A stretch of 64,000 bases of DNA from Microbacterium oxydans. Its GTDB lineage: Bacteria; Actinomycetota; Actinomycetes; Actinomycetales; Microbacteriaceae. Below are positions 15,532 to 55,700 of this stretch, one piece after another (position 1 is the stretch's first letter; every line of letters begins with the position of its first letter). The position numbers were made by a program, and so were the translations under genes. The DNA lies in assembly GCF_000956525.1 (NCBI RefSeq), contig NZ_JYIW01000024.1, forward strand, positions 248,001-312,000. Reading direction: 5' to 3'. Below the pieces are notes generated by a model. That model worked only from the letters and a program-made list of their open reading frames with translations. It was not told the origin of the DNA and searched no databases.

Positions 15532-17274
<1,743 letters not shown>

Positions 17275-17644: not shown

Positions 17645-17860
17645 GACACCGATCCGTCTTTTCCTGCGCACGTCGACGACGTTGCACCCCGGGCGCGGAT
17701 GGCGCGCGGTGCTGCGCGCCGTCGAAGCATCCGGCGGTGTGCCAGTATTTAGAAAAAACCCCGCTCGACTTTCCCTCCGAGCTCCTGGTGTTGAAGGGCA
17801 CCGCGAGATCGACGCCGGCTATCCACGCGGCAGGGAATTTCCCCAAGGAGAGCTGTACAC
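17645..17860 (+). other. Intergenic region before the receiver-deacetylase cassette
   Basis: 216 nt with no convincing gene. An AT-rich island around 17745-17757 (TATTTAGAAAAAA) stands out against the GC-rich surroundings and is the likely promoter area. AAGGAGAG at 17844-17851 is the ribosome-binding site for the ATG at 17861, leaving a leader of about 100 nt. The start-to-leader distance differs from the leaderless genes nearby. Confidence 0.45.
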
Positions 17861-18904
17861 ATGCTTGAGGATGCGCCTCGCGTTCTCGTCGTCGATGACG
17901 ACCCGGACGTCGCCCTGCTCGTGAAGACCGTGCTCGAGAGGCGCGCGGGCTGCGTCGTCGACCTCGCTGCCGACGGTCGAGCCGCGATCGACCTCGTCGC
18001 CACGGTCCGGCCCGATGTCGTGGTCACCGACATCGAGATGCCGGGCATCAGCGGACTCGAGCTGCTCGAGGAGCTGCGACGGATCATCCCTGGGGTGCCG
18101 GTCGTCGTCATGACCGCGCACGTCTCGGTCGACTACGCGGTCTCGGCGCTCCGCGCGCAGGCCGACGAGTTCCTCACGAAACCCCTCGACAACGTCCGAC
18201 TGGTCGAGACGGTCACCCGTCTCGTCGAGGAAGGCCGTCGGCGTCGCGAGTCCAACCGACCGAAGAACGTCGTGCTCGCGATCGGCGCGCACCCCGACGA
18301 CGTCGAGATCGGCGTCGGCGGACTGCTCGCAGCGCACGCCCAGGCCGGCGACGAGCTGACGATCCTCACGCTGTCGCGCGGCGCCCGCGGCGGAGACGCC
18401 GAGAGCCGCCAGAACGAGTCGCTCGCATCGGCCGAGATCCTCGGCGCCCGCCTGTTCCTGAAGGACCTCGTCGACACCGAGATCTCGGGTGGCGGCGGCA
18501 CCGTGCGCCTGATCGAGGAGGTCGTGCGCGAGATCCAGCCGACCATCGTCTACACGCACTCGCAGAACGACCGGCACCAGGACCATCGCGCGGTGAGCGA
18601 GGCGACGATCGTCGCCACCCGACGGGTCGGCACGGTCGCCTGCTACCAGAGCCCATCGTCGACGATCGACTTCCGACCCACCCGCTTCGTGCGCATCGAC
18701 CAGTACCTCGAGCAGAAGCAACGGCTGCTGGCGTGCTTCCAGTCGCAGACCGCGAGCCGCGACTACCTCGAACCTGATTTCGTGAGCGCGACGGCGCGCT
18801 ACTGGTCGCGTTTCGGCGGTGGACTCGCGGTCGAGCCGCTGGAAGTGGTGCGTGAGACGGCCGAGTTCGTCGGTGCACATGAATTGACGAGGCGGGAGAG
18901 CTGA
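17861..18904 (+). CDS. Response-regulator receiver fused to PIG-L (LmbE-like) deacetylase
   Basis: 347 aa in two domains. Residues 5-125 are a receiver domain: acidic pocket DDD12-14, phospho-acceptor Asp57 in VVVTDIEMPGISG, Thr85 and Lys107 in FLTKPL. Residues ~135-300 are a PIG-L/LmbE zinc hydrolase: AHPDDVEIGVGG with His144, Asp146, Asp147 and the second metal motif His239-Gln-Asp-His242. PIG-L enzymes remove acetyl from N-acetylglucosaminyl groups. Phosphorylation could therefore directly gate a deacetylase rather than DNA binding; no DNA-binding domain is present. First gene of a seven-gene cassette, with a good ribosome-binding site; its stop touches the next ATG (TGATG). Confidence 0.85.
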   Translation: MLEDAPRVLVVDDDPDVALLVKTVLERRAGCVVDLAADGRAAIDLVATVRPDVVVTDIEMPGISGLELLEELRRIIPGVPVVVMTAHVSVDYAVSALRAQADEFLTKPLDNVRLVETVTRLVEEGRRRRESNRPKNVVLAIGAHPDDVEIGVGGLLAAHAQAGDELTILTLSRGARGGDAESRQNESLASAEILGARLFLKDLVDTEISGGGGTVRLIEEVVREIQPTIVYTHSQNDRHQDHRAVSEATIVATRRVGTVACYQSPSSTIDFRPTRFVRIDQYLEQKQRLLACFQSQTASRDYLEPDFVSATARYWSRFGGGLAVEPLEVVRETAEFVGAHELTRRES

Positions 18905-19893
18905 TGACCAAGCGCGTACTGGTGACCGGAGCCGGGGGACCGGCCGGCGTCGCCGTGATCCGATCGCTGCTCCGACGCTCCGACCTGACGGTGTTCGCAG
19001 CGGACATGGACGGCTGGGCGAGCGGCATCTACCTGGTGCCAGCCGACCAGCGTCGCCTCGTGCCGCCCGGACGCGACGAGGACTTTGTGCCGGCGCTCGC
19101 TCGGCTCGTGCAGGAGGATTCGCTCGATCTCGTGATCTCGACGGTCGACGTCGAGCTCGTCGCGCTCGCGAGTCGCCGCGACGAGCTCGCTCCGGCGGTC
19201 CTCGCGGCGCCGTCCGCGGAGACGCTCCACGCCGCGCTCGACAAGCTCACGCTGGCAGAACGTTGCGAGCCGACCGGCTATGCGCCGCGCACGGTGCTCG
19301 CTGGGCCCGACGCCGAGGCAGTGGACTGGGAGTTCCCGGTCTTCGCGAAGCCGCGTCAGGGCGCGGGCAGTCGCGGCATCAGGCTCGTGCCTGATCGCGC
19401 TGCTCTCGTGTCGCTGCCCACGGATGAGGGCCTCATCGTGCAGGACTTCCTGCCCGGCGAGGAGTACTCGGTCGACGTGATCGCCGACGCGCAGGGCAAC
19501 GTCGTCGCGGCGGTGCCGCGCACACGTGCCCGCGTGGACTCCGGTGTCGCGATCGCCGGACGGACGGTGCGCGACCCAGAGCTCGAGCGCACCGCGGCAT
19601 CCCTCGCACAGGCGATCGGTCTGGTCGGCGTCGCCAACGTGCAGCTGCGCCGCGACCGCTCCGGCCGTGCCGTGCTGCTCGAGATCAACCCTCGCTTCCC
19701 CGGAGCGCTCCCGCTGACCATCGCGGCGGGCGTCGACATCCCATCGCTGGTGGTCGACCTGTTCCTCGGGCACGAGCTTCCCGCCAAGATCCCGTTCCGC
19801 GAAGTCGCCTCGGTGCGCTTCCTGGAAGACGTGATCGTCGAGGTCGAGGACATCCTGGTCTCCGAGCATGCGGGGCATCAGGAGGAGTCGTGA
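18904..19893 (+). CDS. ATP-grasp ligase, carbamoyl-phosphate-synthase-like
   Basis: Predicted ATP-dependent carboxylate-amine ligase, substrate unknown. 329 aa. The N-terminus VLVTGAGGPAGVAVIRSLLR is a Rossmann-like preATP-grasp domain. The ATP-grasp core has FPVFAKPRQGAGSRGI with the phosphate-binding glycine loop, GLIVQDFLPGEEYSVDVI, and the Mg-binding LLEINPRFPG near residues 262-271. It overlaps the previous stop by 1 nt and the next start by 4 nt, so it is obligately co-expressed. Such enzymes add amino acids or acids to sugars, peptides or cofactors. No amino-group acceptor can be deduced. Confidence 0.8.
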   Translation: MTKRVLVTGAGGPAGVAVIRSLLRRSDLTVFAADMDGWASGIYLVPADQRRLVPPGRDEDFVPALARLVQEDSLDLVISTVDVELVALASRRDELAPAVLAAPSAETLHAALDKLTLAERCEPTGYAPRTVLAGPDAEAVDWEFPVFAKPRQGAGSRGIRLVPDRAALVSLPTDEGLIVQDFLPGEEYSVDVIADAQGNVVAAVPRTRARVDSGVAIAGRTVRDPELERTAASLAQAIGLVGVANVQLRRDRSGRAVLLEINPRFPGALPLTIAAGVDIPSLVVDLFLGHELPAKIPFREVASVRFLEDVIVEVEDILVSEHAGHQEES

Positions 19894-20603
19894 GTCCGGC
19901 GATCCTCCACGGCGATCACCACGTCCACTCGACCTTCTCCGACGACGCCGTCTCGACCCTCGCTGAGAACGTCGCAGCAGCATCGTCCATCGGCCTCACC
20001 ACGCTGCGACTGGTCGACCACGTTCGACAGAGCACCACGTGGGTGCCCGAATACCTGACCGCGGTGCGCGAACTCGAGATCCCCGATGGACTCACCGTGC
20101 TCACGGGCGTCGAGGCGAAGATCCTCACGGCGGCGGGTGACCTCGACATCCCGGTGCTGCCGGCAGGTATCGACCGCATCCTGATCGCCGACCACCAGTT
20201 CCCCGGTGTCGACGGACCGCTCGGGCCGACCGCGGTGCGCGAGCGTATCGCTGCCGGCTGGGCGAAGGACGACGTCCTGGACCAGCTCGTCGATGCGCTG
20301 ATCGCCTCGATGCAGCGTCATCCGGGCAACCAGCTGGCGCACTGCTTCTCGATCCTCCCGAAGATCGGCCTCTCCGAGGGCGAGCTCGGCGCTGAGCGGG
20401 TCGACGCCTGGGCGCGAGCCACCGCGGCATCCGACACCCTCGTCGAGGTCAACGAGAAGTGGGCGTGCCCCGAACCGCGCACGCTCCACGCGCTCCTGGC
20501 AGCCGGCGCCGAGCTCGTCGCCTCCACCGACAGCCACGTCGCGTCCGATGTGGGCCGCTACGACCGGGTCGCGGGGCTGCTCGCCGACGCGGGAGCAGCG
20601 TGA
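19890..20603 (+). CDS. PHP-domain metal-dependent hydrolase
   Basis: Predicted phosphoesterase of the polymerase-and-histidinol-phosphatase superfamily. 237 aa. The metal cluster begins with HGDHHVHSTFSDDA (His11-x-His13), continues with VDHVR, GVEAKI and DHQFPG, and ends with STDSHVASDVGRYD. The architecture resembles histidinol-phosphatase-type PHP proteins, but there is no histidine biosynthesis context, so a sugar-phosphate or cyclic phosphate substrate is as likely. GTG start overlapping the ATP-grasp stop; the stop overlaps the next start. Confidence 0.78.
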   Translation: MSPAILHGDHHVHSTFSDDAVSTLAENVAAASSIGLTTLRLVDHVRQSTTWVPEYLTAVRELEIPDGLTVLTGVEAKILTAAGDLDIPVLPAGIDRILIADHQFPGVDGPLGPTAVRERIAAGWAKDDVLDQLVDALIASMQRHPGNQLAHCFSILPKIGLSEGELGAERVDAWARATAASDTLVEVNEKWACPEPRTLHALLAAGAELVASTDSHVASDVGRYDRVAGLLADAGAA

Positions 20604-22090
20604 TGACGGACCTCACCTGGCTGCAGACGACCTTCGTCGTCTTCCTCCTGATCTGCGTCTTCGTCGGCACGCTCCCGGTGATCAACACCGGACTGCAGTT
20701 CCTGTCGTTGCCGCTGCACGCCTTCCGCAACCACTACGGGAAGGCCGCGCCGTATCATCCGAACGTCGCCGTCCTGATCCCCTCGTGGAACGAGGGCATG
20801 GTGATCGGACCGGCGATCGAGCGACTGCTGCAGCTCGAGTATCCCGCCGAGCGGCTGCGCATCTTCGTCGTCGACGACGCCTCGACCGACGACACCCCTG
20901 AACTCCTCGCAGCGAAGATGGCGGCCTATCCCGGTCGCGTGCACCACCTCCGGCGCGAGGTCGGTGGGCAGGGCAAGGCGCACACCCTCAACCACGGTCT
21001 CGACATCGTGCTCGCAGACGAGTGGACCGAAGCCGTGCTCATCATGGACGCCGATGTGATCTTCGCGCGCGACTCGCTGCGCAAGCTCAGCAGGCATCTC
21101 GCCGACGAGAAGGTCGGCGCGGTCACGGCATACATCGCCGAGGGCAGCAGGGACCGCAACTACCTGACCCGCTTCATCGCGATCGAATACGTGATCGGAC
21201 AGCTCTCCGCGCGCCGCGCGCAGAACGTGGCAGGTGCGATCGCCTGCCTCGCCGGCGGCGCGCAGCTGCACTCGCGGGCGAACCTCGAAGCGATCGGCGG
21301 GCGCATCCCCACCGGCACCCTCGCCGAGGACACCATGACCACCTTCGAAGGGCAGCTCAAGGGCCGCCGCATGGTGTTCGAGCCGCACGCGGTCGTGATG
21401 GCCGAGGAGCCGCGCACGATCGACAGTCTGTGGAAGCAGCGCCTTCGCTGGGCTCGCGGCAACGTGCAGCTCACCTCGATCTACCGCAAGCTCTGGTTCC
21501 GCCCGAGCCGCACCCACAACCTCGGCAGCTTCGCGTTCGGACTCGCCTGGTTCACGATCCTGCTGCTGCCGGCGTTCATGCTGCTCGCCGCCGCTGCGAT
21601 GCTGACCCTCCTCGTGCTGCACAGCGACATCGCGGAGTTCGTCTTCCGATTCATGTGGATCTCGGCAGCCTGCGTCTACCTGTTCTCGATGCTGTACGCC
21701 GTGCAGCTGGACGGGCGGATCGGACGCCAATCGTGGCGCGAGGCGCTCATGTTCCCCGGGCTCGGGGCGCTGATCCTGATGGCCATCGCGCTGTTCCCGT
21801 GGCTCTTCGAAGCCGGTCTCACCCAGCTCGGTCTGGGGCTCACCGATGAGTCCCGCTTCACCTGGGCCGTGATCTTCTACCTCTGGGGCCCGATCTCGAT
21901 GCTCGGCATCTGGCTCGCGCGGGCCGTGGAGCCGCTGCCCGGCGGACGGTTCTTCGCCGGACTGCTGCTCTACATCTGCGGGTACGGTTCGCTGTTGTGC
22001 GCGATCACCGTCGATTCGTACATCAAGGAGTGGCGTCGCGCCGACGCCTCATGGATCAAGACCGAGAAGATCGGACGGGTCGACTCATGA
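20603..22090 (+). CDS. Processive GT2 membrane glycosyltransferase
   Basis: Membrane polysaccharide-type glycosyltransferase. 495 aa: one N-terminal TM (~residues 8-30), a cytoplasmic GT2 domain, and about five C-terminal TMs from ~residue 305. Catalytic features in order: VVDDASTDDT, the MDADV DxD motif, LAEDTMTT (catalytic acid), and QRLRW (residues 279-283), the QxxRW motif of processive synthases such as poly-N-acetylglucosamine, hyaluronan and cellulose synthases. The ATG at 20603 overlaps the PHP stop (TGATG); GTG 20600 is an alternative. The neighbouring PIG-L deacetylase favours an N-acetylhexosamine polymer, which is inference. Confidence 0.85.
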   Translation: MTDLTWLQTTFVVFLLICVFVGTLPVINTGLQFLSLPLHAFRNHYGKAAPYHPNVAVLIPSWNEGMVIGPAIERLLQLEYPAERLRIFVVDDASTDDTPELLAAKMAAYPGRVHHLRREVGGQGKAHTLNHGLDIVLADEWTEAVLIMDADVIFARDSLRKLSRHLADEKVGAVTAYIAEGSRDRNYLTRFIAIEYVIGQLSARRAQNVAGAIACLAGGAQLHSRANLEAIGGRIPTGTLAEDTMTTFEGQLKGRRMVFEPHAVVMAEEPRTIDSLWKQRLRWARGNVQLTSIYRKLWFRPSRTHNLGSFAFGLAWFTILLLPAFMLLAAAAMLTLLVLHSDIAEFVFRFMWISAACVYLFSMLYAVQLDGRIGRQSWREALMFPGLGALILMAIALFPWLFEAGLTQLGLGLTDESRFTWAVIFYLWGPISMLGIWLARAVEPLPGGRFFAGLLLYICGYGSLLCAITVDSYIKEWRRADASWIKTEKIGRVDS

Positions 22091-22233
22091 CCGAGACACC
22101 TTCGCAGGAGGATCCCGAGGTCGAGGAGATCGCCGCCGACCTGCGCCGCGAACGGCTCCTCGTCACGCAGGCGCTCGTCGCAGCAGGGGTCGTCGTGGTG
22201 ATCGTGATCGTGCGAGAGCTGTTCCTGCGGTGA
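22087..22233 (+). CDS. 48-residue single-pass membrane peptide
   Basis: Unknown function. An acidic N-terminus (EDPEVEEIAADLRRER) is followed by one TM helix of about 20 residues (ALVAAGVVVVIVIV) and a short RELFLR end. It overlaps the glycosyltransferase stop (ATGA) and the next GTG by 4 nt, which argues strongly that it is a real translated gene. Its place behind a GT2 synthase recalls the small accessory membrane subunits PgaD/IcaD, though no sequence similarity is evident. Confidence 0.7.
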   Translation: MTETPSQEDPEVEEIAADLRRERLLVTQALVAAGVVVVIVIVRELFLR

Positions 22234-22574
22234 CCCGTCCGCTCGCTCTCGTGGTCGAGGACAGCGCCGATCAGACGGCACTCCTGCGTCGCTACCTCGA
22301 TCGGGAGGGATTCGACGTGTTCGTGGCACCGGATGCCGAGACCGCGATCGCTGCGTTCCCCGGCATCGATCCTGCGGTGGCCGTGCTCGACCTCCTGCTG
22401 CCGGGCATCTCAGGACAGGAGTGCGCGCGCCTCGTCCGCGAGCGCTTCCCCGACTGCTTCCTGGTGATCAGCTCCGTGCTCGATGCCGCAGAGTATCCGC
22501 CGGCCGACGCCGCGCTTCCCAAGCCCATCATCGGCGCGGACATGCACGAGATCCTCGGACGCGTGCAGCGATGA
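22230..22574 (+). CDS. Single-domain response regulator
   Basis: 114-aa receiver domain without an output domain. Acidic pair Glu10-Asp11, phospho-acceptor Asp54 in VLDLLLPGISG, Ser at the switch position in VISSVLD, and the conserved Lys in ALPKPI. It probably relays phosphate or acts by protein contact. GTG start overlapping the small membrane gene; the stop overlaps the kinase ATG (ATGA). Likely phosphorylated by the adjacent kinase and possibly sharing phosphate with the receiver of the deacetylase fusion. Confidence 0.85.
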   Translation: MTRPLALVVEDSADQTALLRRYLDREGFDVFVAPDAETAIAAFPGIDPAVAVLDLLLPGISGQECARLVRERFPDCFLVISSVLDAAEYPPADAALPKPIIGADMHEILGRVQR

Positions 22575-24364
22575 ACGCCGCCACACCGCTCGACCGCGCC
22601 GAGCACGGCTGGTACCGCCTGTTCGACAACCCGAGTCCGCTGCTGAAGCAGGCCCCCACCACGATCGCGATCGTCACCGCGGCGCTCGTGGCCTGGCTCA
22701 ACCCCGAACTGCCCTTCACCAACGGGTTCTCTGCGCTCGCCGGCCTGGCCCTCGTGCTCGGTGCGACCGTGCAGGCGGCGGCGCTCAGCATGCTGCGGGT
22801 GTACGACGGCTGGATCGTGCTCATCATCCCGATGATCGACATCCTCGGGCTCGGGCTGTTCCGCGCAGGGACCGGCGGAGCGACATCGATCTTCGGCTCG
22901 CTCGTCCTGCTCCCGGTCGTCTGGATCGCGGCGGCTCCCGGCATCCGCTATGTCTTCGCCGTCGGCGGGCTCACATCGGTCGCACTGCTGATGCCGTACT
23001 TCGCGAGCCCGCCGGACACCCCGGTCGAATGGCTGCGAGGCGTGGTCGGACCGCTCGTGTTCTCAGCGATGGCTGCCGTGGTCAACGAGCTCTCGCGGCA
23101 GCAGCGCGTGCGAGCGGAGCAGGCAGAGCGACTCGTCGCGGCGCGGACGGAGGCGCTCTCCGACAACGTCGCGATGATCGTGCAACTGCGCGAGAAGGAG
23201 AACCAGTACCGAGCCCTCGTCGAGTCGTACGAGGGACTCTGGTCGTCGATCACGGCGCAGGCTGTGATCGCGACCGATCACAGCGGGTGGATCACGGCGT
23301 GGAACCCGGGTGCGGAACGCCTGCTCGGCCTGACCTACGCAGAAGCGACTGAGCACGTCCGTGTCGATCGGTTCTTCTCGGCATCGTCGCTGACCGAACT
23401 GGCGAGCGACTGCACGGTCGGTCAGCGAGACGACGAGGCGAGCGACCTCCCTGCTGGGCTGCGGGCGCTGTTCGCCGGTGCGGACGATGAGCAGAGCGTC
23501 GAGAGCGATGTCGCCGTCGTGACGGCAGCCGGGACCGCGGTTCCGGCTCGCGTGACGGTGAACCCGTACAAGGACGGTGAGGGCACGCAGCAGGGATATC
23601 TGCTCGTCGTCACGGACGAGAGCAGGGCCGTCGAGGTCGCCCGCATGAAGGACGAGTTCGTCGGCATGATCTCGCACGAGCTGCGGACGCCGCTGAGCGC
23701 GATCATCGGCTTCCTCGACCTGCTCAAGAACGACCCCGGTCAGCCCCTGACCGAGGATCAGCAGGAGTTCGTCGGCATCATCGAGCGCAACGCGCAGCGT
23801 CTGCTCAATCTCGTGGGCGACCTGCTGTTCACCGCACAGGTCGAATCGGGGCGGTTCCCGCTCGACCGCGCGGACGGCGACATCGCCGAGATCGTTCGCT
23901 CCGCCGTCACCTCGGCCGGGCCGCACGCGGTGCGCGAGGGGATCACGCTCACGGCGGATGTGCCGGATGGCCCGCTGCGGCTGCTCATCGACGCCGGTCG
24001 CATCGGGCAGGCCGTCGACAACCTGCTGTCCAATGCGATCAAGTTCACGCCACCCGGCGGCAGCGTCGTGGCCCGCATCCGCCTGGTCGACAGCGGGGTC
24101 GAGCTCTCGGTGCGGGACACCGGCGTCGGCATCCCGGCCGACGAGCAGGGGATGCTGTTCACCCGGTTCTTCCGTGCATCGACCGCGACGCAGAATGCCG
24201 TCCCCGGCGTCGGGCTCGGGCTCACGATCACGCGGGCGATCGTGATCGCGCACGGCGGGACGATGGGCATGTCGAGCGAGGTGGGCGTCGGGACGGAGTT
24301 CCGGTTCACGCTGCCCTCGGCACCGCGCACCGAGGTGCTGAACACGCTCAGCCTGACGAAGTGA
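22571..24364 (+). CDS. Membrane PAS-domain sensor histidine kinase
   Basis: 597 aa. Residues ~24-175 contain about six TM segments and little outer loop, so it probably senses a membrane or membrane-soluble signal. A short coiled coil (~residues 175-215) leads to a PAS domain (AVIATDHSGWITAWNPGAE). HisKA has EFVGMISHELRTPLSAI with phospho-acceptor His369. The ATPase domain has the N box NLLSNAIKFTPPGG, DTGVGIPADEQ and GVGLGLTITRAIV. The ATG at 22571 (residue-level agreement with ATGA overlap) is preferred over the longer frame upstream. Last gene of the cassette; no terminator-like hairpin directly after it. Confidence 0.88.
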   Translation: MNAATPLDRAEHGWYRLFDNPSPLLKQAPTTIAIVTAALVAWLNPELPFTNGFSALAGLALVLGATVQAAALSMLRVYDGWIVLIIPMIDILGLGLFRAGTGGATSIFGSLVLLPVVWIAAAPGIRYVFAVGGLTSVALLMPYFASPPDTPVEWLRGVVGPLVFSAMAAVVNELSRQQRVRAEQAERLVAARTEALSDNVAMIVQLREKENQYRALVESYEGLWSSITAQAVIATDHSGWITAWNPGAERLLGLTYAEATEHVRVDRFFSASSLTELASDCTVGQRDDEASDLPAGLRALFAGADDEQSVESDVAVVTAAGTAVPARVTVNPYKDGEGTQQGYLLVVTDESRAVEVARMKDEFVGMISHELRTPLSAIIGFLDLLKNDPGQPLTEDQQEFVGIIERNAQRLLNLVGDLLFTAQVESGRFPLDRADGDIAEIVRSAVTSAGPHAVREGITLTADVPDGPLRLLIDAGRIGQAVDNLLSNAIKFTPPGGSVVARIRLVDSGVELSVRDTGVGIPADEQGMLFTRFFRASTATQNAVPGVGLGLTITRAIVIAHGGTMGMSSEVGVGTEFRFTLPSAPRTEVLNTLSLTK

Positions 24365-24443: not shown

Positions 24444-26132
24444 GTGGGCTACATCGATGTCTCCGGCGTCTCGCTGACGCTGCCCGACGGCAGACCGCTG
24501 CTCGACGACGTGACGTTCCGCGTCGGTCAGGGGTCGACCAGCGCGCTGATCGGCCCGAACGGGGCGGGCAAGACGACCCTGCTGCGGATCATCCGCGGCG
24601 ACCAGGCCGTGGACGACGGCGTCGTGACGATCGACGGCGGCCTCGGCGTCATGGACCAGTTCGTCGGTCACGGCGAGCCCGGTGAGACCGTGCACGAGCT
24701 CCTGGTCCGCGTCGCGCCTCGTCGTATCCGAGCCGCGGCGGAGGCGCTCGAGGCAGCCGAGAACGCGCTGATCGAGCGGGACGAGCACGAGACGCAGATG
24801 GCCTACGCCTCCGCGATCTCGGAGTATGCGGATGCCGGTGGCTACGAGCACGAGACGGTCTGGGACCAGTGCACGGTCTCGGCGCTCGGCCTGCCGTTCG
24901 AGCGGGCGCGCTACCGCGAGCTCACCACGCTGTCCGGCGGCGAGCAGAAACGGCTGGCGCTCGAAGCGCTGCTCCGCGGACCCGACCAGGTGCTGCTGCT
25001 CGACGAGCCGGACAACTACCTCGACGTTCCGGCGAAGCGCTGGCTCGAGGCGCAGCTGCGCGAGTCGGCGAAGACGGTGCTGCTCGTGTCGCACGACCGC
25101 GAGCTGCTCGCCCGCGCCGCCGACCGGCTGATCAGTCTCGAGCCAGGCGGCGCCGGATCGACCGCCTGGGTGCACGGCGGCGGTTTCGCCACCTACCACC
25201 AGGCTCGCAGCGATCGGATGGACCGCCTGGACGAGCTGCGGCGGCGGTGGGACGAGCAGCATGAGAAGCTGCGCATCCTCGTCGCGAACCTCAAGGTGAA
25301 GGCCTCGGCGAACGACGGCTTCGCCTCGCGCTACCAGGCCGCCCAGACGCGGCTGCGGAAGTTCGAGGAGGCTGGGCCGCCGGAGGAGCGCCCGCCGTCG
25401 CAGGAGTTCGACATGCGGTTGCGCGGCTCACGCACCGGCAAGCGCGCCGTGGTGGCGACCGGTCTCGAGCTGACCGGGCTCATGCGGCCATTCGACGCCG
25501 AGGTCTGGTACGGCGATCGTGTCGCGGTGCTCGGCTCGAACGGGTCGGGCAAATCGCACTTCCTCCGGCTGCTCGCACGCGGTGGCAGCGACCCGGATCC
25601 GACGCTCGGTCACCTGACGGCGGCGGGGGAGCAGGTCGGCGCCGTCGCGCACACCGGGCGCGCGGTGCTCGGGGCCCGTGTCGTTCCAGGGCTGTTCGCG
25701 CAGACGCATGCGCATCCGGAGTTCGTCGGTCGGACGCTCCTCGAGATCCTGCACCGGGGCGACGATCGGCGCAGCGGGATGCCGCGGGATGCCGCGAGCT
25801 CGGCGCTCGACCGGTACGGGCTGGTCCGTCAGGCGCAGCAGACGTTCGAGTCGCTGTCAGGAGGCCAGCAGGCCCGCTTCCAGGTGCTGCTGCTCGAGCT
25901 GTCGGGGGCGACGCTGCTGCTGCTCGACGAGCCGACGGACAACCTCGACCTGGAATCGGCCGAGGCGCTCGAACAGGCCCTCGCGCGCTTCGAGGGCACG
26001 GTGCTCGCGGTCACGCACGATCGCTGGTTCGCCCGGTCCTTCGACCGCTTCCTGGTGTTCGGCTCCGACGGCGACGTCTACGAATCGGGCGAGCCGATCT
26101 GGGACGAACGCCGCGTGGCTCGCGCGCGCTGA
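24444..26132 (+). CDS. ABC-F family ATPase
   Basis: Soluble twin-ATPase protein with no membrane domain, of the type that acts on the ribosome (translation factor or antibiotic protection). 562 aa. Domain 1: GPNGAGKTTLLRII, LSGGEQKRLALEAL, LLLDEPDNYLD. A charged linker rich in Arg (~residues 255-325) then Domain 2: LGSNGSGKSHFLRLL, LSGGQQARFQVLLL, LLLDEPTDNLDLES. The second Walker A is slightly unusual (GKSH). Domain 1 has DNYLD in place of TNHLD. GTG start, leader ~35 nt. Whether it is a housekeeping EttA-type or resistance protein cannot be decided here. Confidence 0.87.
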   Translation: MGYIDVSGVSLTLPDGRPLLDDVTFRVGQGSTSALIGPNGAGKTTLLRIIRGDQAVDDGVVTIDGGLGVMDQFVGHGEPGETVHELLVRVAPRRIRAAAEALEAAENALIERDEHETQMAYASAISEYADAGGYEHETVWDQCTVSALGLPFERARYRELTTLSGGEQKRLALEALLRGPDQVLLLDEPDNYLDVPAKRWLEAQLRESAKTVLLVSHDRELLARAADRLISLEPGGAGSTAWVHGGGFATYHQARSDRMDRLDELRRRWDEQHEKLRILVANLKVKASANDGFASRYQAAQTRLRKFEEAGPPEERPPSQEFDMRLRGSRTGKRAVVATGLELTGLMRPFDAEVWYGDRVAVLGSNGSGKSHFLRLLARGGSDPDPTLGHLTAAGEQVGAVAHTGRAVLGARVVPGLFAQTHAHPEFVGRTLLEILHRGDDRRSGMPRDAASSALDRYGLVRQAQQTFESLSGGQQARFQVLLLELSGATLLLLDEPTDNLDLESAEALEQALARFEGTVLAVTHDRWFARSFDRFLVFGSDGDVYESGEPIWDERRVARAR

Positions 26133-29487: not shown

Positions 29488-32400
29488 ATGATGTCCGCCC
29501 CACTCGACGAGAACCCCCAGGTTCCCGTCTCGCGCAGAACCAGGGGGCGCATCGGCGCTCTCGCCGTGACCTGCGTCGCCGCACTGAGCTTCGGCTCGCT
29601 GACCGCCGTTCCAGCCTTCGCCGACACCACCGGAACGGGGGTGGTGATCAACGAGGCGTACCTCTCCGGAGGCAGCGCCGGCGCCGCGTTCACGAACAAG
29701 TTCGTCGAACTGTACAACCCGACCTCCGCGCCGGTCACCCTCGACGGCATGTCGCTGCAGTACCGCTCGGCGACCGGCACCGCGAACTTCAACGGCGTCG
29801 CACCGCTGACCGGTGTGATCCCCGCAGGCGGGCACTACCTGGTGCAGGGCAACAGCAACGGGACCAACGGTGCAGCGCTGCCCACTCCCGATGCGGTCAG
29901 CACCCTGACCCCGAGCGGCACCAACGGCACGCTCGCGCTCGTCAAGGGCACGGCACCTGTCGCGCTGACCCCCGGTTCGGTCGCTGGCGTCGACGGTGTC
30001 GTCGACCTGCTCGGCTACGGCACCTCGAACACCTTCGAGACCGCGGCAGCGACCCCGCCGACCGGCAACACGGACGTGAAGTCGCTGAACCGCACGAACG
30101 GCGCCGACACCGACGACAACAGTGCCGACTTCTCGCTCTCCGCGACGATCACCCCGCAGAACTCCGGCGGCACCGACCCCGGAACGGACCCCGGCACCGA
30201 TCCGGGGACGGATCCCGAGAAGGTGTCGATCGCCGAGGTGCAGGGCACCACAGACGTCTCGCCGCTGAACGGCCAGACGGTCACCGTCGAGGGCGTCGTG
30301 ACCGGCGACTACCGCACGGGCGGCTACAAGGGCATCTCGATCCAGACCCAGGGATCCGGCGGCGCGAACGACGCGACCCCCGGAGCATCCGACGGCGTCT
30401 TCGTCTTCCTGAACGCACTGGCACCGACCCTCGCGATCGGCGACCTCGTGTCGGTGACGGGTTCCGTGAGCGAGTACTTCGGCCAGACCCAGGTGAACCC
30501 GACGGCGCTCTCCGGCATCACGGTCGTCACCCCCGGCGCAGGCGTGCCGGAGGCCACTCCGCTGCCGGACACCGTGCGCGGCGCCGACCGTGAGCAGTAC
30601 GAGAACATGCTCGTCGCGCCCACCGGGTCGTACCGCCTCGCCTCGAGCCACCAGCTCTACAACTTCGGAACGCTGTGGCTGAACGCGGGCGAGCTGAACG
30701 TCAAGAGCACCGAGACCACGCGTCCCGGCGCTGAGGCTGCGGCCATCGCAGCGGTGAACCGCGCGAACCGCATCCTGCTCGACGACGGGTGGTCGGTGCA
30801 GGTCGGCAACAGCACGCACCCCGGCGAGCAGCCGTACTTCACGGCCGACACGGTCGTGCGCAACGGCGACACCGTCGACTTCAGCGACACGGGCTACGTG
30901 CTGCAGTGGGGCTTCGACGACTGGCGTCTGCAGCCGACCGTACCGATCGACGACGCATCGCCCGCCTCGCTCAAGGCCGGGTTCGAAGCGACGCACGCGC
31001 GCACCACGACGCCGCCTGAGGTCGGCGGCGATGTGCAGGTCGCGTCGTTCAACGTCTACAACTACTTCACGACGCTGAAGTCCGAGAACGCCGACGCGCG
31101 CGGAGCGGCGAACGCCGCCCAGTTCGCGATCCAGAAGTCGAAGATCGTCGCGGCCATCAACGGACTCGACGCCGAGATCGTCTCGCTCATGGAGATCGAG
31201 AACTCGGTCAAGCTGGGCAAGCCGATCGACACGGCGCTCAAGGATCTGGTCGCCGGTCTGAACGAGGACGCCGGCAGTGAGGTGTGGGACTACGTGCCGA
31301 CGCCTGACGCGCTGAACAACGCCGCGACGACCGACTTCATCACGAACGCGATCATCTACAAGAAGGATGCCGTCACGACCGTCGGCGACAGCGCGACGGT
31401 CACCGACGAGACCGTCTGGGGCAACGCCCGCGAGCCGATCGCGCAGGCGTTCGACATCGACGGCCGCGTGGTCACGGTGGTCGCGAACCACCTGAAGTCC
31501 AAGTCGCCGCCCACCGGCGCAGGTGCGGAGCCGGCCGACGGCCAGGGCTTCTTCAACGCCGACCGCGTCGGACAGGCGAACGCGATCCTGGCCTTCACCC
31601 AGACGCTCGAAGACACCACCGGCAGCAGCGACATGCTGCTGATCGGCGACTTCAACGCGTACGGCAAGGAAGACCCGATCGACGTCTTCACCTCGAAGGG
31701 CTGGAGCGACCTGGTCGCCGACAAGACCGACGGGCAGTACACCTACTCGTTCGACGGCGAGCTCGGCTCGCTGGACCACGTGATCGCCTCGCCCTCGCTG
31801 AGCGCCTCGATCACGGGCGCCGGCGTCTGGACGATCAACTCGCCGGAGTGGAGCGACCGCGGCTACGCGTTCGGTGCCACCGAGGCAGGAACGCCGTACC
31901 GGTCCAGCGACCACGACCCGATCATCGTCGGCGTCTCCTCGGAGATCCCGCCGGTGAGCATCGACGTCGTGACGATCAACGACTTCCACGGACGCATCGA
32001 AGCCGATGGTGCTGCCGCCGGAGCCGCGGTCGTCGCCGGCGCCGTCAAGCAGTTCCGCGAGGCGAACCCCAACACGATCTTCGCCGGAGCCGGTGACCTG
32101 ATCGGTGCATCGACGTTCACGTCGTTCATCAACGACGACAACCCGACGATCGACGCGTTGAACGCGGCCGGTCTCGATGTGAGCGCCGCCGGCAACCACG
32201 AGTTCGACCAGGGCTGGGAGGATCTGCGCGACCGCGTGCAGGACCGAGCAGACTGGGAGTACATCTCGTCGAACGTGTTCCTGACCGAGACCGGCGAGCC
32301 TGCGCTCGCACCTGCCTGGGTCAAGGAGCTCGACGGTGTGAAGGTCGGCTTCATCGGAGCCGTCACGGAAGACCTCGACTCGCTCGTGTCGCCGGAAGGC

Positions 32401-34113
32401 ATCGCAGACCTCGAGGTCCGCAGCATCGTCGACTCCGTGAACGCGGTGGCCGACGATCTGCGTGATGGCGACGCCTCCAACGGCGAGGCCGACGTGATCA
32501 TCCTGCTCGTGCACGAGGGTGCGTCCAGCACTGCGCTCTCGAGCATCACGCCCGAGTCGCCGCTGGGCGAGATCGTCTACGGCGTCGACCAGGACGTCGA
32601 CGCGATCGTCTCGGCGCACACGCACCTGGCGTACAACCACGTGATCGACGGACGACCGGTCGTCTCGGCGGGTCAGTACGGCGAGAACCTGGGGCTGATG
32701 AACCTCCAGGTCGACCCGAAGACGAAGGAGCTGCTCTCGATCACCAACCAGATCAAGCCACTCGTCGTCGGCGGCGTCGCCCAGTACCCAGCCGTGCCAG
32801 AGGTCGCCGACATCGTCGCGAAGGCGAAGGCCGAGGCCGACGTGCTCGGTGCGATCAAGGTGGGCGACATCACCGCCGACTTCAACCGCGCTCGCCAGAC
32901 GAACGGCTCGGAGAACCGCGGTGGCGAGTCGACGATCGGCAACTTCGTCGCCGACGTGCAGAAGTGGTCGACGGATGCCGACATCGCACTGATGAACCCG
33001 GGCGGCATCCGCGCCAACCTGACCTATGCCTCGTCCAACGCCTCGGATCCGGACGGCAACGTCACGTACCGCGAGGCGGCGACGGTGCAGCCGTTCGCCA
33101 ACACCCTCGTCACGCTCTCCCTCACGGGTGCGCAGCTGAAGGGTGTGTTGGAGGAGCAGTGGCAGCCGGCCGGTTCGGCTCGACCGTTCCTGAAGCTCGG
33201 CGTCTCGGAGGGTCTGGTCTACACCTACGACCCCGCCGCGGCGCAGGGTTCGCGGGTCACCTCGATCACGTTGAACGGCACGCCGATCGATCCGGCGGCG
33301 AGCTACACGGTCGCAGCCAACTCGTTCCTCGCAGCGGGTGGAGACAACTTCTTCACCTTCAAGGAGGGCACCGGCAAGCGCGACACCGGCAAGATCGACC
33401 TGCAGTCGATGGTCGACTGGTTCGACGCCAACAAGACGGCGACGCCCGATCAGGCGCAGCGTGCGGTCGGCGTCTCGGTCAGCGCAGCGGATGCCGACGG
33501 CTACACCGCCGGCGACCAGGTCACCGTCTCGCTCTCCTCGCTCGCGTTCAGCGCGGGGGAGCCGGCACCGGGTGAGGTGACGCTTTCGCTTGGCGGCACG
33601 CAGCTCGCGAGCGGCGCGGTCGACCCGACCATCGTCGACACGACCGATGAGGCGGGACGTGCCAGCCTGACGTTCACCGTTCCGTCCGGCGTGTTCGGCG
33701 AGCAGGTGCTCGCCGTGGCCGTCGCCGGGACCGGGACGACCGTACAGGTGCCGTTCACGATCACCGGCGAGGCAGCCTTCGCCGGGACGATCGACCTCGG
33801 ATCCTCGAAGGTCACCGCGGGGAAGAAGCTCACCGTCACCGGTGCGGGCTACGTGCCCGGCGAGACCGTGAGCATCGAGCTGCGTCCGAAGAAGGGCAAC
33901 CCGGTCCAGGTCGGCACCGTCAAGGTCGCGGCAGACGGCACGTTCAGCACCTCGGTCACCGTGCCGAAGAGCGCTCCGTCCGGCAAGTACACCGTGGCGG
34001 CGGCGCAGGCTGATGGAGACGCGGCGACCGCCACGGTCACCGTCAACCGCGCCGGCGGCATCGTCGGTGCGATCCTCGACTGGCTCTGGAGCCTGATCAG
34101 CGGATGGTTCTGA
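29488..34113 (+). CDS. Secreted ExeM/NucH-type nuclease fused to 5'-nucleotidase
   Basis: Large exported enzyme, 1541 aa, expected to degrade extracellular DNA and dephosphorylate the nucleotides. Signal peptide ~1-45 ending TAVPAFA; lamin-tail domain from ~residue 52 (VVINEAYLSGGSAGAAFTNK); a GTDP repeat linker at 228-243; OB-like DUF/YhcR part (~246-470); endonuclease/exonuclease/phosphatase domain ~515-815 (VASFNVYNYF, MEIEN, GDFNAYG, SSDHDP). Then metallophosphatase ~825-1075 (TINDFHGRIE, GNHEFDQG, HTHLAYNH), 5'-nucleotidase C-terminal domain ~1125-1300 (GNFVADVQ, MNPGGIRANL, AAGGDNFF), and Ig-like repeats to the end. There is no sorting signal, so it is probably released. ATG with GAGGAG upstream. 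Confidence 0.9.
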   Translation: MMSAPLDENPQVPVSRRTRGRIGALAVTCVAALSFGSLTAVPAFADTTGTGVVINEAYLSGGSAGAAFTNKFVELYNPTSAPVTLDGMSLQYRSATGTANFNGVAPLTGVIPAGGHYLVQGNSNGTNGAALPTPDAVSTLTPSGTNGTLALVKGTAPVALTPGSVAGVDGVVDLLGYGTSNTFETAAATPPTGNTDVKSLNRTNGADTDDNSADFSLSATITPQNSGGTDPGTDPGTDPGTDPEKVSIAEVQGTTDVSPLNGQTVTVEGVVTGDYRTGGYKGISIQTQGSGGANDATPGASDGVFVFLNALAPTLAIGDLVSVTGSVSEYFGQTQVNPTALSGITVVTPGAGVPEATPLPDTVRGADREQYENMLVAPTGSYRLASSHQLYNFGTLWLNAGELNVKSTETTRPGAEAAAIAAVNRANRILLDDGWSVQVGNSTHPGEQPYFTADTVVRNGDTVDFSDTGYVLQWGFDDWRLQPTVPIDDASPASLKAGFEATHARTTTPPEVGGDVQVASFNVYNYFTTLKSENADARGAANAAQFAIQKSKIVAAINGLDAEIVSLMEIENSVKLGKPIDTALKDLVAGLNEDAGSEVWDYVPTPDALNNAATTDFITNAIIYKKDAVTTVGDSATVTDETVWGNAREPIAQAFDIDGRVVTVVANHLKSKSPPTGAGAEPADGQGFFNADRVGQANAILAFTQTLEDTTGSSDMLLIGDFNAYGKEDPIDVFTSKGWSDLVADKTDGQYTYSFDGELGSLDHVIASPSLSASITGAGVWTINSPEWSDRGYAFGATEAGTPYRSSDHDPIIVGVSSEIPPVSIDVVTINDFHGRIEADGAAAGAAVVAGAVKQFREANPNTIFAGAGDLIGASTFTSFINDDNPTIDALNAAGLDVSAAGNHEFDQGWEDLRDRVQDRADWEYISSNVFLTETGEPALAPAWVKELDGVKVGFIGAVTEDLDSLVSPEGIADLEVRSIVDSVNAVADDLRDGDASNGEADVIILLVHEGASSTALSSITPESPLGEIVYGVDQDVDAIVSAHTHLAYNHVIDGRPVVSAGQYGENLGLMNLQVDPKTKELLSITNQIKPLVVGGVAQYPAVPEVADIVAKAKAEADVLGAIKVGDITADFNRARQTNGSENRGGESTIGNFVADVQKWSTDADIALMNPGGIRANLTYASSNASDPDGNVTYREAATVQPFANTLVTLSLTGAQLKGVLEEQWQPAGSARPFLKLGVSEGLVYTYDPAAAQGSRVTSITLNGTPIDPAASYTVAANSFLAAGGDNFFTFKEGTGKRDTGKIDLQSMVDWFDANKTATPDQAQRAVGVSVSAADADGYTAGDQVTVSLSSLAFSAGEPAPGEVTLSLGGTQLASGAVDPTIVDTTDEAGRASLTFTVPSGVFGEQVLAVAVAGTGTTVQVPFTITGEAAFAGTIDLGSSKVTAGKKLTVTGAGYVPGETVSIELRPKKGNPVQVGTVKVAADGTFSTSVTVPKSAPSGKYTVAAAQADGDAATATVTVNRAGGIVGAILDWLWSLISGWF

Positions 34114-52595: not shown

Positions 52596-52684
52596 CCGCC
52601 ACGCGGTGACGCGGGACAACGGCAACCCCGCGTTCACTCGGCGTACATCGCCGAGCCGTGCGTCGGCCATGCGGTGTCGATGGT

Positions 52685-52716
52685 CTGATCGGGTACCCGT
52701 CTGCATACCCGATCAG
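52685..52716 (+). promoter_or_regulatory. 11-bp perfect hairpin next to the ribosome-binding site
   Basis: CTGATCGGGTA (52685-52695), 10-nt loop, TACCCGATCAG (52706-52716). The right arm runs into AGGAG (52715-52719), which is the ribosome-binding site for the ATG at 52724. It may be a repressor operator or an RNA structure limiting translation. Confidence 0.6.
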
Positions 52717-52723
52717 GAGTCCC

Positions 52724-55700
52724 ATGTCCCGCCTGCATCGCGGGGTCTCGGTCACGGTGGTCTGCGCTCTCAGCGCTGCCGCTCTGCTCGCTGCCCCCGC
52801 CGCCGCCATCGGCGCCACAACCGGCGCCGGCCCCACCGAGGTCGCTGCGCCGCTCGCAGCATCCGGCCTCGTGCTGAACGAGATCGTCTACGACGATGCG
52901 CAGACGGGTCTGGCCGATCAGGTCGAGATCTACAACGCGGGAACCGAGACCGTCGCGCTCGACGGATGGCGGATCTCCGACGAGAAGCGTGATGTCTTCG
53001 GCCAGGCGCCGTCCGGTGCGACGCTGGCGCCCGGTGCGTTCCTGGTGCTCGTGAAGGATGTCGACTTCGACTTCGGGCTCGGCAAGGGCGACGAGGTCGT
53101 GCTCTTCGACCCGAATGACACCGTCGTCGACTCCTACGCCTACGAGAACACCGCCCCGTTGTCGGTCTGGGCTCGCTGCGCCGACGGCACCGGTGAGTGG
53201 GCACCTGCGACCACCGCGACGCCCGGGGCGGCGAACGACTGCTCGATCGCGCCCGCCGCCGGCTCCATCCGGATCAACGAAGTCGACTCGCAGCCGGGCG
53301 ACTGGGTCGAGTTCTTCAACCCGGGGACGGCGGCGCTCGACATCTCCGGCTACGAGATCCGCGACAACTCGGACGACCATCGCTGGCAGTTCCGTCCGGG
53401 CACCACGATCGCGGCCGGCCAGTACCTGCTCGTCGAGGAGGGCACGATCGGGCTCGTGGGTGGCACCGAGACCGCGTTCCGCGATCCGATCGGCATCGGC
53501 AGTGCCGACCGCATCCGCCTGTTCGACACGACCGGCGCACTGATCGACGACACGAAGCCGTGGAACGGCCACGCCGCGATCGACGGCGACGCCGGCGCTG
53601 CCACGCTCGCGCGCTGCCCCGACGGCGTCGGCGAGTTCGTGCTGGCGCACCCGACGCCCGGCGCGAGCAACTCGTGCGTGCTGCCGTCCGTCGTCATCAA
53701 CGAGATCGAGTCGAACGGCGATGCCACTGACTGGGTCGAGGTGCTGAACACCGGTGCCGCGGCAGTCGATCTGTCCGGGTGGACCGTGATGGACAACGAC
53801 CCGAACGGCCACGCGACCGAGACCACGCCGCTCCCGGCGGGGACGGTCCTGGCACCCGGCGCGTACTTCGTGTTCGACCAGCCGACGGACTTCGTCTTCG
53901 GCCTCGGCAACGGCGACACCGTGACCATCCGCGACGCGAACGGGACCACGGTCGCAACGCACGTCTACACCGCGCACGCCGCCGGCGTGCTGGCACGCTG
54001 CGCCGACGGCACCGGCGACTTCATCGACATCGCCGTCTCGACCAAGGGGATGCGCAACGCCTGCGGCAACCCGGTTCGCATCAACGAGGTCGAATCGGAC
54101 GGCGGCTCGCCCGATGACTGGATCGAGCTGGTCAACCCGACCTCGGGCGCGCTCGACGTCGCCGGCATCGTCGTGAAGGACGACGACGACGCCCACGCGT
54201 ACACGATCCCCGCCGGCACCTCGATCGCCGCCGGCGGCTTCCTCGTGATCGAACGCGATGCACTCGGCTTCGGCCTGGGCGGCGGTGACGCGGTCCGCGT
54301 GTTCGACGGCGACCTGCTCATCGACGAGACGTCGTGGGGCGAGGGCCACGCGGCGATCACCTGGGGTCGCTGCCCCGACACGACCGGCACTTTCGCGGTG
54401 ACGGCCGAGTCGACCAAGGGAGCGCCCAACGTGTGCGCCGGGGAGATCGAGGTCACTCCGTGGCCCGGTTCGGCCGAGGTGCGCGTGCTCGACGACGTGC
54501 CGACGTTCCTCGAGGACAGCTCCGGTCTCGACGTGCAGGAGACCGCCGACGGCGCGTTCCTCTGGGCCGTCGACAACGGTGAGGGCCGCATCTGGAAGCT
54601 CGACGCGCACGCAGACGGTTCGGTCGCGAAGGCTGACGGCTGGGACACGGGCAAGCGCGTCCGCTTCCAGAAGGACGCCGCGAACCCCGGTGCCGCCGGT
54701 CCTGACACCGAGGGCATCACGGTCGACGGCGACGGCTTCGTCTACGTCGCCTCCGAGCGCGACAACAGTGCGAAGGGCGTGAATCAGAACATCGTGCTCA
54801 AGGTCGATCCGGATGCCGCGGCCGGCGACCTCGTCGCGCAGCAGGAGTGGGACCTGACGGCCCTGCTCCCCGCTGTCGGCGCGAACCTCGGCATGGAGGC
54901 CGTGCAGTGGGTGCCCGACTCGGCGCTCACCGGACGGCTCTTCGACGACAACACGGGTGCCGCGTACGACCCTGCGGGCTATGCGGGACACGGCGGCGGG
55001 CTGTTCTTCGTCGCCGTGGAGGACACCGGCCACATCTCCGCCTTCGCGCTCGCCGCGGACGGTGGTGCGACGCTCGTCTCCGAGATCGCACCTGGGCTCG
55101 CCGGCGTCATGGCGCTCGACTACGACAGCGTGCGCGACGTGCTGTGGGCGGTGTGCGACGACGGATGCGGCGGACAGTCCGCCGAGATCACCCTCAACAG
55201 CACCGACCAGCCCGGTATCGTGCACCACGCCCGCCCTGCCGGGATGCCCGACATCAACAACGAGGGCTTCGCCACGGCGCCGGCCTCGCTGTCGATCGAC
55301 GGGCAGCGTCCGGTCTGGTGGTTCGCCGACGGCTTCGCCTCGCAGTCGCTGCGGGTGGGCACCCTGCCAGGCGTCGAGACCGAGACGCCGGGCGGCACCA
55401 CGCCGCCGCTCCCCGGTTCGGCTCTGGTCGACGACAACCGCGACGGCGTCACGATCAATCCGGCCGCCGCTGCGCCGGGGGAGCGCGTCGTCGTCTCGAC
55501 CGGCGCTGACCACGCCGGCACGCAGGTCGCAGTGTGGCTGTACTCCGATCCGGTGCGTCTCGCCACCGGAGCCCTGGACGCATCCGGTCGGATCACGGTG
55601 ACGATCCCGGCGGATGCCGCGGCCGGCGCTCACCGCATCGCGGTCTTCGCCGCGAACGGCGATCTGCTGGGCTGGGGCGACCTCACGGTCACCGCAGCGA

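Follow-up and report, generated by a model that had tools for sequence, protein, structure and literature searches.

A conserved seven-gene cassette of Microbacterium oxydans with a receiver-PIG-L fusion and a membrane glycosyltransferase: a likely exopolysaccharide system with a proposed new mode of control

Among described systems, the closest to the gene cassette treated here are the poly-N-acetylglucosamine (PNAG) loci pgaABCD and icaADBC, the cellulose (BcsA/BcsC) and hyaluronan synthases, the mycothiol and bacillithiol pathways (MshB/BshB), and the CheB-type response regulators. The cassette comprises seven genes at positions 17861-24364 of a 64,000-nucleotide stretch of Microbacterium oxydans (RefSeq assembly GCF_000956525.1, contig NZ_JYIW01000024.1, positions 248,001 to 312,000 of the forward strand; the whole stretch is called the window in the following), from a host genome of 3.81 Mb. 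With the PNAG loci it shares a membrane glycosyltransferase of family 2 (GT2) with a small membrane partner, a predicted N-deacetylase and, in several relatives with two membranes (diderms), a tetratricopeptide repeat (TPR) protein with a predicted barrel. It departs from them in a GT2 that stays below the PgaC/IcaA cut-off, in a deacetylase that is of the PIG-L type, receiver-fused and apparently cytoplasmic, in the addition of ATP-grasp and PHP proteins and a kinase of its own, and in a synthase partner with one transmembrane (TM) segment, PgaD and IcaD having two. The predicted GT2 fold is like that of the cellulose and hyaluronan synthases, and the predicted TPR-barrel partner of diderm relatives is like BcsC; unlike in these systems, no PilZ domain is found on the GT2 (Pfam), and predicted precursor-modifying enzymes and a phospho-receiver are present instead. 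As in the mycothiol and bacillithiol pathways, a PIG-L domain with its motif occurs together with a glycosyltransferase and a ligase; here, however, these are a membrane GT2 synthase and an ATP-grasp ligase, the deacetylase is fused to a receiver, and the BshB1 cut-off is not reached. CheB is a response regulator with an enzymatic output, and in the cassette, too, a receiver is fused to an enzyme rather than to a DNA-binding domain, the output in this case being a PIG-L de-N-acetylase.

The cassette is real and conserved, is undescribed in the literature searched, and likely serves as an exopolysaccharide system, with a putative arrangement of control that would be new. An earlier reading of the window, made from the letters alone (the sequence-only reading), had not recognized the combination as a described system. 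The searches agree: among the matches listed, the open-access full-text literature describes neither the gene combination nor a receiver-PIG-L fusion, and no NCBIfam model listed for the cassette proteins reaches its cut-off (best 25 matches for three of the proteins). Exact coordinates of the open reading frames (ORFs) and Pfam assignments bear out the seven same-strand genes and their order (Table 1). The overlaps at the junctions are, in gene order, 1, 4, 1, 4, 4, and 4 nt, and since every junction overlaps by 1 or 4 nt, co-translation is likely. The Pfam E-values are 1e-31 (Response_reg) and 3e-26 (PIG-L) for the fusion, 2e-31 for ATPgrasp_Ter, 2e-8 for PHP, 5e-30 for Glyco_tranf_2_3 on the GT2, and 5e-11 for Response_reg on the stand-alone receiver, while the 48-aa protein matches no Pfam family.

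The gene order extends beyond this strain, as was found by two routes. In the first, genome contigs were scanned with the fusion protein, and the best 80 loci (L023-L102) of at least 492 relatives were taken, some of them on contigs that end early, within the fetched stretch. The closest named relatives of the fusion in these loci belong to Microbacterium, with at most 87% identity; the cassette is present in two M. oxydans assemblies (L029, L042). The gene caller gave a PIG-L gene for 77 of the 80 loci. Within the fetched stretch it is accompanied by an ATP-grasp gene in 60, a PHP gene in 51, and a GT2 gene in 54, all four occurring together in 44 of the 77; in 23 no GT2 lies in the stretch. 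Same-strand adjacency holds for PIG-L to ATP-grasp in 56 of 60 cases, for ATP-grasp to PHP in 49 of 49, and for PHP to GT2 in 42 of 44. When the genomes behind chosen loci were searched as a whole, the GT2 was found in 13 of 16 (in two, L081 and L082, in the locus already) and the ATP-grasp in 9 of the 13 searched, including a local copy in L074 missed by the gene caller; some genomes, such as that of L064, have an additional cassette, PIG-L included, at another place.

In the second route, loci were picked by a GT2 profile only (E <=1e-100). This matched in 31 of 299 family genomes, from 15 of 85 genera, and in 3 of 396 phylum genomes, the window genome being counted in each; the distribution of the cassette GT2 is patchy in both family and phylum. 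Thirty-two GT2-first places were fetched, 30 of the 32 from the family scan (the window and G066 left out) and two from the phylum scan, and 26 of the 32 contain the receiver-PIG-L, ATP-grasp, PHP, GT2, and small TM genes in the window order, by stop positions. Six places hold the GT2 alone, all in genomes that also carry the receiver-PIG-L gene; the GT2 frame is split in L134. Both genes are present in five genomes of another genus of the family (g291), where they are separated by more than 1 Mb or belong to different contigs, and G565 has a complete cassette plus a second, solitary GT2. The routes overlap in part, since the GT2 profile was built from first-route loci; at least five of the 26 cassettes repeat first-route contigs (L103=L095, L105=L035, L106=L038, L124=L031, L131=L039), and L130 belongs to the genome of L036. 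Among 149 same-genus genomes, the fusion was matched at 1e-30 in 26; the match in G071 covers only residues 132-338, and the remaining 25 genomes are exactly the 25 that have the GT2. The core, or parts of it, also occurs in other Actinomycetota and in Pseudomonadota, Myxococcota, and Rhodothermota.

The GT2 has a TM region (hydropathy scan; TM helices in the model), and D91, D92, D149, D151, E242, D243, Q279, R280, R282, and W283 are kept in 55 of 55 rows; this set and the residue sets given below for the other proteins hold close relatives picked by score and speak for intact sites, not for function. The QxxRW motif named in the sequence-only reading is present as QRLRW at 279-283. The predicted structure (pLDDT 89.4, pTM 0.88) matches hyaluronan synthase with Z 25.6 and rmsd 3.3 over 378 aligned residues and cellulose synthase with Z 24.7 and rmsd 3.6 over 367, both matches spanning most of the model length. 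A one-TM ORF is present in each of the 26 full-core GT2-first places; beside the first-route GT2s, an ORF of at most 90 aa was called in 38 of 54 loci, an undercount, as five of the 16 misses (L025, L028, L030, L031, L042) do show a small ORF. The 48-aa one-TM protein of the window is presumed to be the GT2 partner. That a processive-type GT2 makes a polymer, as had been proposed, is well supported, and the chief addition to its support is a TPR gene with a predicted barrel behind the GT2 and small TM genes of several diderm relatives.

This TPR-protein gene stands right after the GT2 and small TM genes in L066, L070, L074, L076, L080, and L084 and, in the same order, in the genome of L091 (locus L148); in L077, a relative sits behind the ATP-grasp gene instead of the GT2. 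The encoded protein has about 430 aa (379 in L066). By clustering, the family comprises 10 loci, all from diderm lineages, to which L066 was added; no member clustered in L081 or L082. TPR repeats are found in the members scanned, and a C-terminal F or W, typical of outer-membrane proteins, is present in 8 of 11 (all except L066, L074, and L079). The Marinicella protein, the sole member modelled, consists of 11 helices followed by 14 strands (pLDDT 84.3). With the full-length model, the top Foldseek match by E-value is BcsC, the exporter of cellulose, at a TM-score of only 0.29, and VIA-align gives no exporter among the 50 rows listed, which align mainly to the TPR half. TPR repeats and a predicted 14-strand part are the layout of polysaccharide exporters, so that, going by the model, an exported polymer is the likely product. 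The PNAG, alginate, cellulose, and Pel operons are each described as encoding an outer-membrane-associated TPR protein (PMC9384988).

The fusion contains the PIG-L motifs AHPDD and HxDH, with HPDD kept in 76 and H239/D241/H242 in all 77 of the called PIG-L genes, and passes the PIG-L model PF02585 (92.7 vs 28.2 bits); the PIG-L part is a predicted de-N-acetylase with intact motifs. In the PHP protein, nine residues of a type expected at a metal site (H11, H13, D18, H44, E75, H102, H151, D214, and H216) do not vary across 19 rows. By hydropathy scan only, no TM segment is seen in the receiver-PIG-L or PHP protein and no N-terminal hydrophobic segment in the fusion, the ATP-grasp, or the PHP protein, the ATP-grasp protein having a single borderline internal hydrophobic window. 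The three enzymes are therefore probably cytoplasmic, and because synthases of the BcsA and HAS type extrude the chain during growth, editing would most likely take place on the precursor. An exported polysaccharide deacetylase of the PgaB/IcaB type is absent among the seven cassette proteins (Pfam). The idea that the polymer itself is edited, as the sequence-only reading worded it, is unlikely.

The cassette further holds a complete predicted two-component system, comprising the HisKA histidine, HATPase_c, and receiver Asp and Lys. All 41 kinases selected by score have a histidine matching the phospho-acceptor His369; Asp54 and Lys98 of the stand-alone receiver are kept in 22 of 22; and Asp57 of the fusion receiver is kept in 68 of the 77 called PIG-L genes. 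In five of the other nine (L058, L067, L082, L099, L102), whose called lengths are 156 to 245 aa, a gap stands at this position. The intact His369, Asp57, and Asp54 and, in Pfam, the lack of a DNA-binding domain on either window receiver are as had been read from the letters. A same-strand kinase gene lies downstream of the core in 23 of the 26 GT2-first cassettes, 13 of which have two stand-alone receivers vs one in the window. In L095, a kinase and an OmpR-type regulator that has a DNA-binding domain lie upstream, L041 has an OmpR-type regulator on the opposite strand, and L096 a hybrid kinase. Input by phosphorylation is thus a recurrent feature, although in some lineages Asp57 is lost or regulators of transcription are encoded close by. 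Post-translational control by phosphorylation is plausible on indirect grounds, in view of the receivers without a DNA-binding domain, the conserved Asp57, and the accompanying kinase; on the other side, among the 54 first-route loci with a GT2, only 29 have a kinase gene in the 1.5 kb downstream of it. As side observations, Marinicella sediminis has, in the neighborhood of its cassette relative, an H-NOX (haem NO-binding) gene (L076:8218-8763) adjoining signalling genes that contain receivers, and in a Leifsonia relative with its GT2 elsewhere in the genome, a carbon-nitrogen hydrolase gene (L033:14188-15018) and the end of the kinase gene overlap.

On a slight balance of probability, the cassette would be a synthase-dependent exopolysaccharide system in which a receiver-controlled cytoplasmic deacetylase acts on the precursor, followed by ATP-grasp modification. 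The GT2 and its one-TM partner would polymerize the sugar and pass the chain across the inner membrane, with the TPR-barrel protein added in several diderm relatives for passage of the outer membrane. PIG-L would strip the N-acetyl group from a cytoplasmic precursor (a nucleotide sugar, a primer, or a lipid-linked unit), ATP-grasp would couple a carboxylate to the freed amine or build the acyl donor, and the PHP phosphatase would take phosphate off an intermediate. The kinase would phosphorylate the receiver on PIG-L, either directly or via the stand-alone receiver, so that the signal would set the amount of deacetylated or re-acylated unit entering the polymer, transcription being unchanged.

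Several observations weigh against this scenario. The best structural match of the GT2 model is PcManGT (Z 31.4, rmsd 3.1, 341 aligned), presumably a lipid-type mannosyltransferase. PgaC_IcaA (TIGR03937), the nearest NCBIfam model of the GT2 (E 1e-35, top match), is far from being reached (123.6 vs 422.3 bits); an N-acetylhexosamine polymer, as had been proposed, is no more than suggested by PIG-L and by this nearest model, whose cut-off is missed by far. The Marinicella model, with its predicted barrel, has a pTM of 0.50. Asp57 is substituted in L088, L092, L093, and L094. The genomes of L056, L060, and L090 have the receiver-PIG-L gene and, in genome-wide searches, neither GT2 nor ATP-grasp, and that of L066 lacks a cassette-type ATP-grasp; the link between the genes is therefore not absolute, L056 and L060 being metagenome-assembled genomes (MAGs) that are possibly incomplete and L090 not being labelled as a MAG. 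No PHP is found in the genomes of L070, L076, and L077, nor a His_Phos_1 protein of the clustered family in their loci. Finally, genes co-kept for some other reason would give the same pattern.

The role of the phosphatase gene allows a second interpretation. Beside the ATP-grasp gene in the 60 first-route loci stand PHP in 49, His_Phos_1 in 4, and neither in 7; among these seven, the L073 ATP-grasp reaches the contig end, and L099 is a looser relative, in which a HAD hydrolase, a UDP-N-acetylglucosamine 2-epimerase, an ATP-grasp protein, and a GT2 are clustered with PIG-L. L074, too, has a His_Phos_1 behind its ATP-grasp. Fourteen genomes lack a local PHP. Three of them have PHP elsewhere, in one beside a TPR gene (L162), and seven, all proteobacterial and none with this PHP, have His_Phos_1 by the ATP-grasp gene, either in the locus (L074, L080, L084, L085, L087) or in a distant ATP-grasp locus (genomes of L083 and L091). 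For L066, L070, L076, and L077, neither PHP (genome-wide) nor His_Phos_1 (not searched genome-wide) was found. That unrelated hydrolase folds share one position suggests phosphate removal, that is, a phosphatase step in this slot. Both the PHP-type CpsB/YwqE and the histidine phosphatase SixA act on proteins, and with this precedent and two unrelated folds filling the slot, the gene could encode a phosphatase acting on proteins, with a role in terminating the signal or in regulating the synthase, rather than a metabolic enzyme. This is rather unlikely: the gene follows directly behind ATP-grasp (PHP in 49 of 49), also in loci where no related kinase was found (L089, L092), and a metabolic step therefore fits better.

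With lower probability, the GT2 would not be processive at all, and the operon would make a small glycoconjugate or glycolipid. The steps would resemble those of mycothiol synthesis, which parallel the cassette in glycosyl transfer, phosphate removal, PIG-L deacetylation, and ATP-dependent amino-acid ligation; PcManGT at the top of the structural matches and BshB1 as nearest NCBIfam model of the PIG-L part (E 5e-26) point the same way. Set against this are QxxRW in 55 of 55 rows, the BshB1 cut-off (TIGR04001; 91.9 vs 182.5 bits), and the diderm TPR gene with its predicted barrel, for which a cytosolic small molecule has no obvious use.

It is improbable that the locus is a divergent form of pga/ica (PNAG), PIG-L having replaced PgaB/IcaB; this would explain the nearest NCBIfam model of the GT2, the small TM partner beside it, and the TPR protein of several diderm relatives, in the position of PgaA; the variant GT2s of L064 and L135 come nearer to PgaC (181.7 and 197.7 bits). 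These variants, like the cassette GT2, remain below the equivalog cut-off, however, and the deacetylase is receiver-fused and apparently cytoplasmic. To our knowledge, ATP-grasp and PHP have no pga/ica counterpart. In a term search, the main text of a survey of exopolysaccharide operons does not mention ATP-grasp, PIG-L, LmbE, or 'PHP domain' (PMC7112194). The variants belong to clusters of their own: in L064, L065, and L068, receiver-PIG-L and kinase are paired with a more distant GT2 and ATP-grasp (Pfam on genes of L064 and L065), and in G071 (L135) a PIG-L without receiver is followed by ATP-grasp and GT2, so that the trio of PIG-L, ATP-grasp, and GT2 recurs with other GT2s. The proteins of L064 and L135 without an assigned family are related to each other (32% over 361 columns).

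That the receiver-PIG-L protein is a signalling output in its own right, with the polymer genes merely in the same regulon, is the least probable alternative, favored by the genomes of L056, L060, and L090 (receiver and kinase genes adjoin the fusion in L056 and L060) and opposed by the exact coincidence of the two genes in 25 of 149 genus genomes, by the full core at 26 of 32 GT2-first places, and by the possible incompleteness of the two MAGs.

Returning to the exopolysaccharide reading, its widest form is tentative and rather doubtful: a cross-phylum class in which a kinase sets the monomer chemistry via a receiver-fused de-N-acetylase before polymerization, the monomers being deacetylated and then re-acylated by ATP-grasp, perhaps with an amino acid. 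Such control may replace periplasmic trimming and control by cyclic di-GMP. If true, it would add a new class, common to monoderms and diderms, to the short list of synthase-dependent exopolysaccharides, and provide a case of a receiver domain directly gating a sugar-modifying enzyme. It would also be a possible source of a matrix in M. oxydans itself. Network-like structures of galactose and N-acetylgalactosamine are reported for M. oxydans in isolation (PMC11985002), and for the M. oxydans DR951 genome a search for known exopolysaccharide clusters is reported to have given no match (PMC12246864). The cassette, seen in the L029 and L042 assemblies, which are other than DR951, is a candidate source for this orphan matrix; the lectin signal behind the network could stem from another glycan.

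Other accounts of the cassette's origin were considered. A chance or strain-specific cluster is ruled out by the 26 of 32 core places, the co-occurrence in 25 of 149 genomes, and the adjacency counts. Composition gives no sign of recent acquisition, the cassette G+C of 0.686 being the same as that of the window. As to an island at a fixed site, an empty site was seen in one cassette-free genome only: in the same-genus G021 (L158), the gap from guaB to the ABC-F gene is 0.69 kb vs 7.2 kb in the window. Three other cassette-free genomes have gaps of 2.2, 5.9, and 3.4 kb, with a DUF2277 match in L161, and the remaining four of the eight tried show no corresponding ABC-F match; two more genomes included in that search have the cassette. 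A plasmid search with the GT2 returned 690 records; identity stays below 60% in all of them, and query coverage never reaches 80%. The GT2 tree, for which 17 of the 54 first-route GT2s were left out to thin close relatives and the window GT2 was added, is mostly ordered by lineage, with two label changes for Actinomycetota and three for Pseudomonadota. Mirror-tree correlations between cassette genes (0.83 to 0.97) were not used as evidence because common descent yields the same.

Table 1. Features of the cassette and its immediate surroundings in the window
Feature	Position	Strand	Remarks
Upstream neighbor, read as guaB	15532-17274		ORF reading
Leader, presumed promoter region	17645-17860	+	Between DUF2277 gene and cassette
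Receiver-PIG-L fusion, 347 aa	17861-18904	+	Receiver 8-118, predicted PIG-L de-N-acetylase 139-252
ATP-grasp ligase-like protein, 329 aa	18904-19893	+	PRK12767/ATPgrasp_Ter type
PHP-domain phosphoesterase-like protein, 237 aa	19890-20603	+	Pfam PHP
Membrane GT2 synthase (predicted), 495 aa	20603-22090	+	D91/D92, DAD149-151, ED242-243, QRLRW 279-283
Single-TM protein, presumed synthase partner, 48 aa	22087-22233	+	Hydropathy scan and gene context
Stand-alone receiver without output domain, 114 aa	22230-22574	+	Asp54; Pfam Response_reg
Membrane PAS histidine kinase, 597 aa	22571-24364	+	His369; PAS, HisKA, HATPase_c
Downstream neighbor, read as ABC-F ATPase	24444-26132		ORF reading

The DUF2277 gene between the predicted guaB and the cassette was assigned by family search. 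A ribosome-binding site, AAGGAGAG, lies upstream of the first ATG, that of the receiver-PIG-L gene. A consensus scan of the leader gave no sigma-70-type promoter, a test that says little for an actinobacterium.

Two protein families occur near cassette relatives. Members of about 118 aa with an SFxLDSWKHR-like motif are encoded at L075:14668-15006, L077:5422-5787, L081:3485-3844, L082:5063-5407, and L100:896-1252. In L075, L077, L081, and L082, the GT2 is no more than about 1.5 kb away; neither Pfam nor NCBIfam gives a match for the protein of L077. In some actinobacteria, a family of about 370-600 aa (L089:13244-14746, L092:13376-15196, L093:12090-13898, L094:12797-13918) is encoded next to the GT2 gene or to the small TM gene that goes with it, has no Pfam match in the three members scanned, and may be a glycan-active enzyme. 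For L092:13376-15196 and L064:11833-12975, there is no PDB sequence match at E <=1 and no Pfam or NCBIfam match. Elsewhere in the window, a 1541-aa ORF (29488-34113, + strand) combines an ExeM/NucH extracellular nuclease (522.6 bits vs a cut-off of 300) with a 5'-nucleotidase C-terminal domain and a lamin-tail domain, and a 1061-aa ORF (52658-55843, + strand) carries lamin-tail domains in four stretches together with a phytase-like esterase domain.

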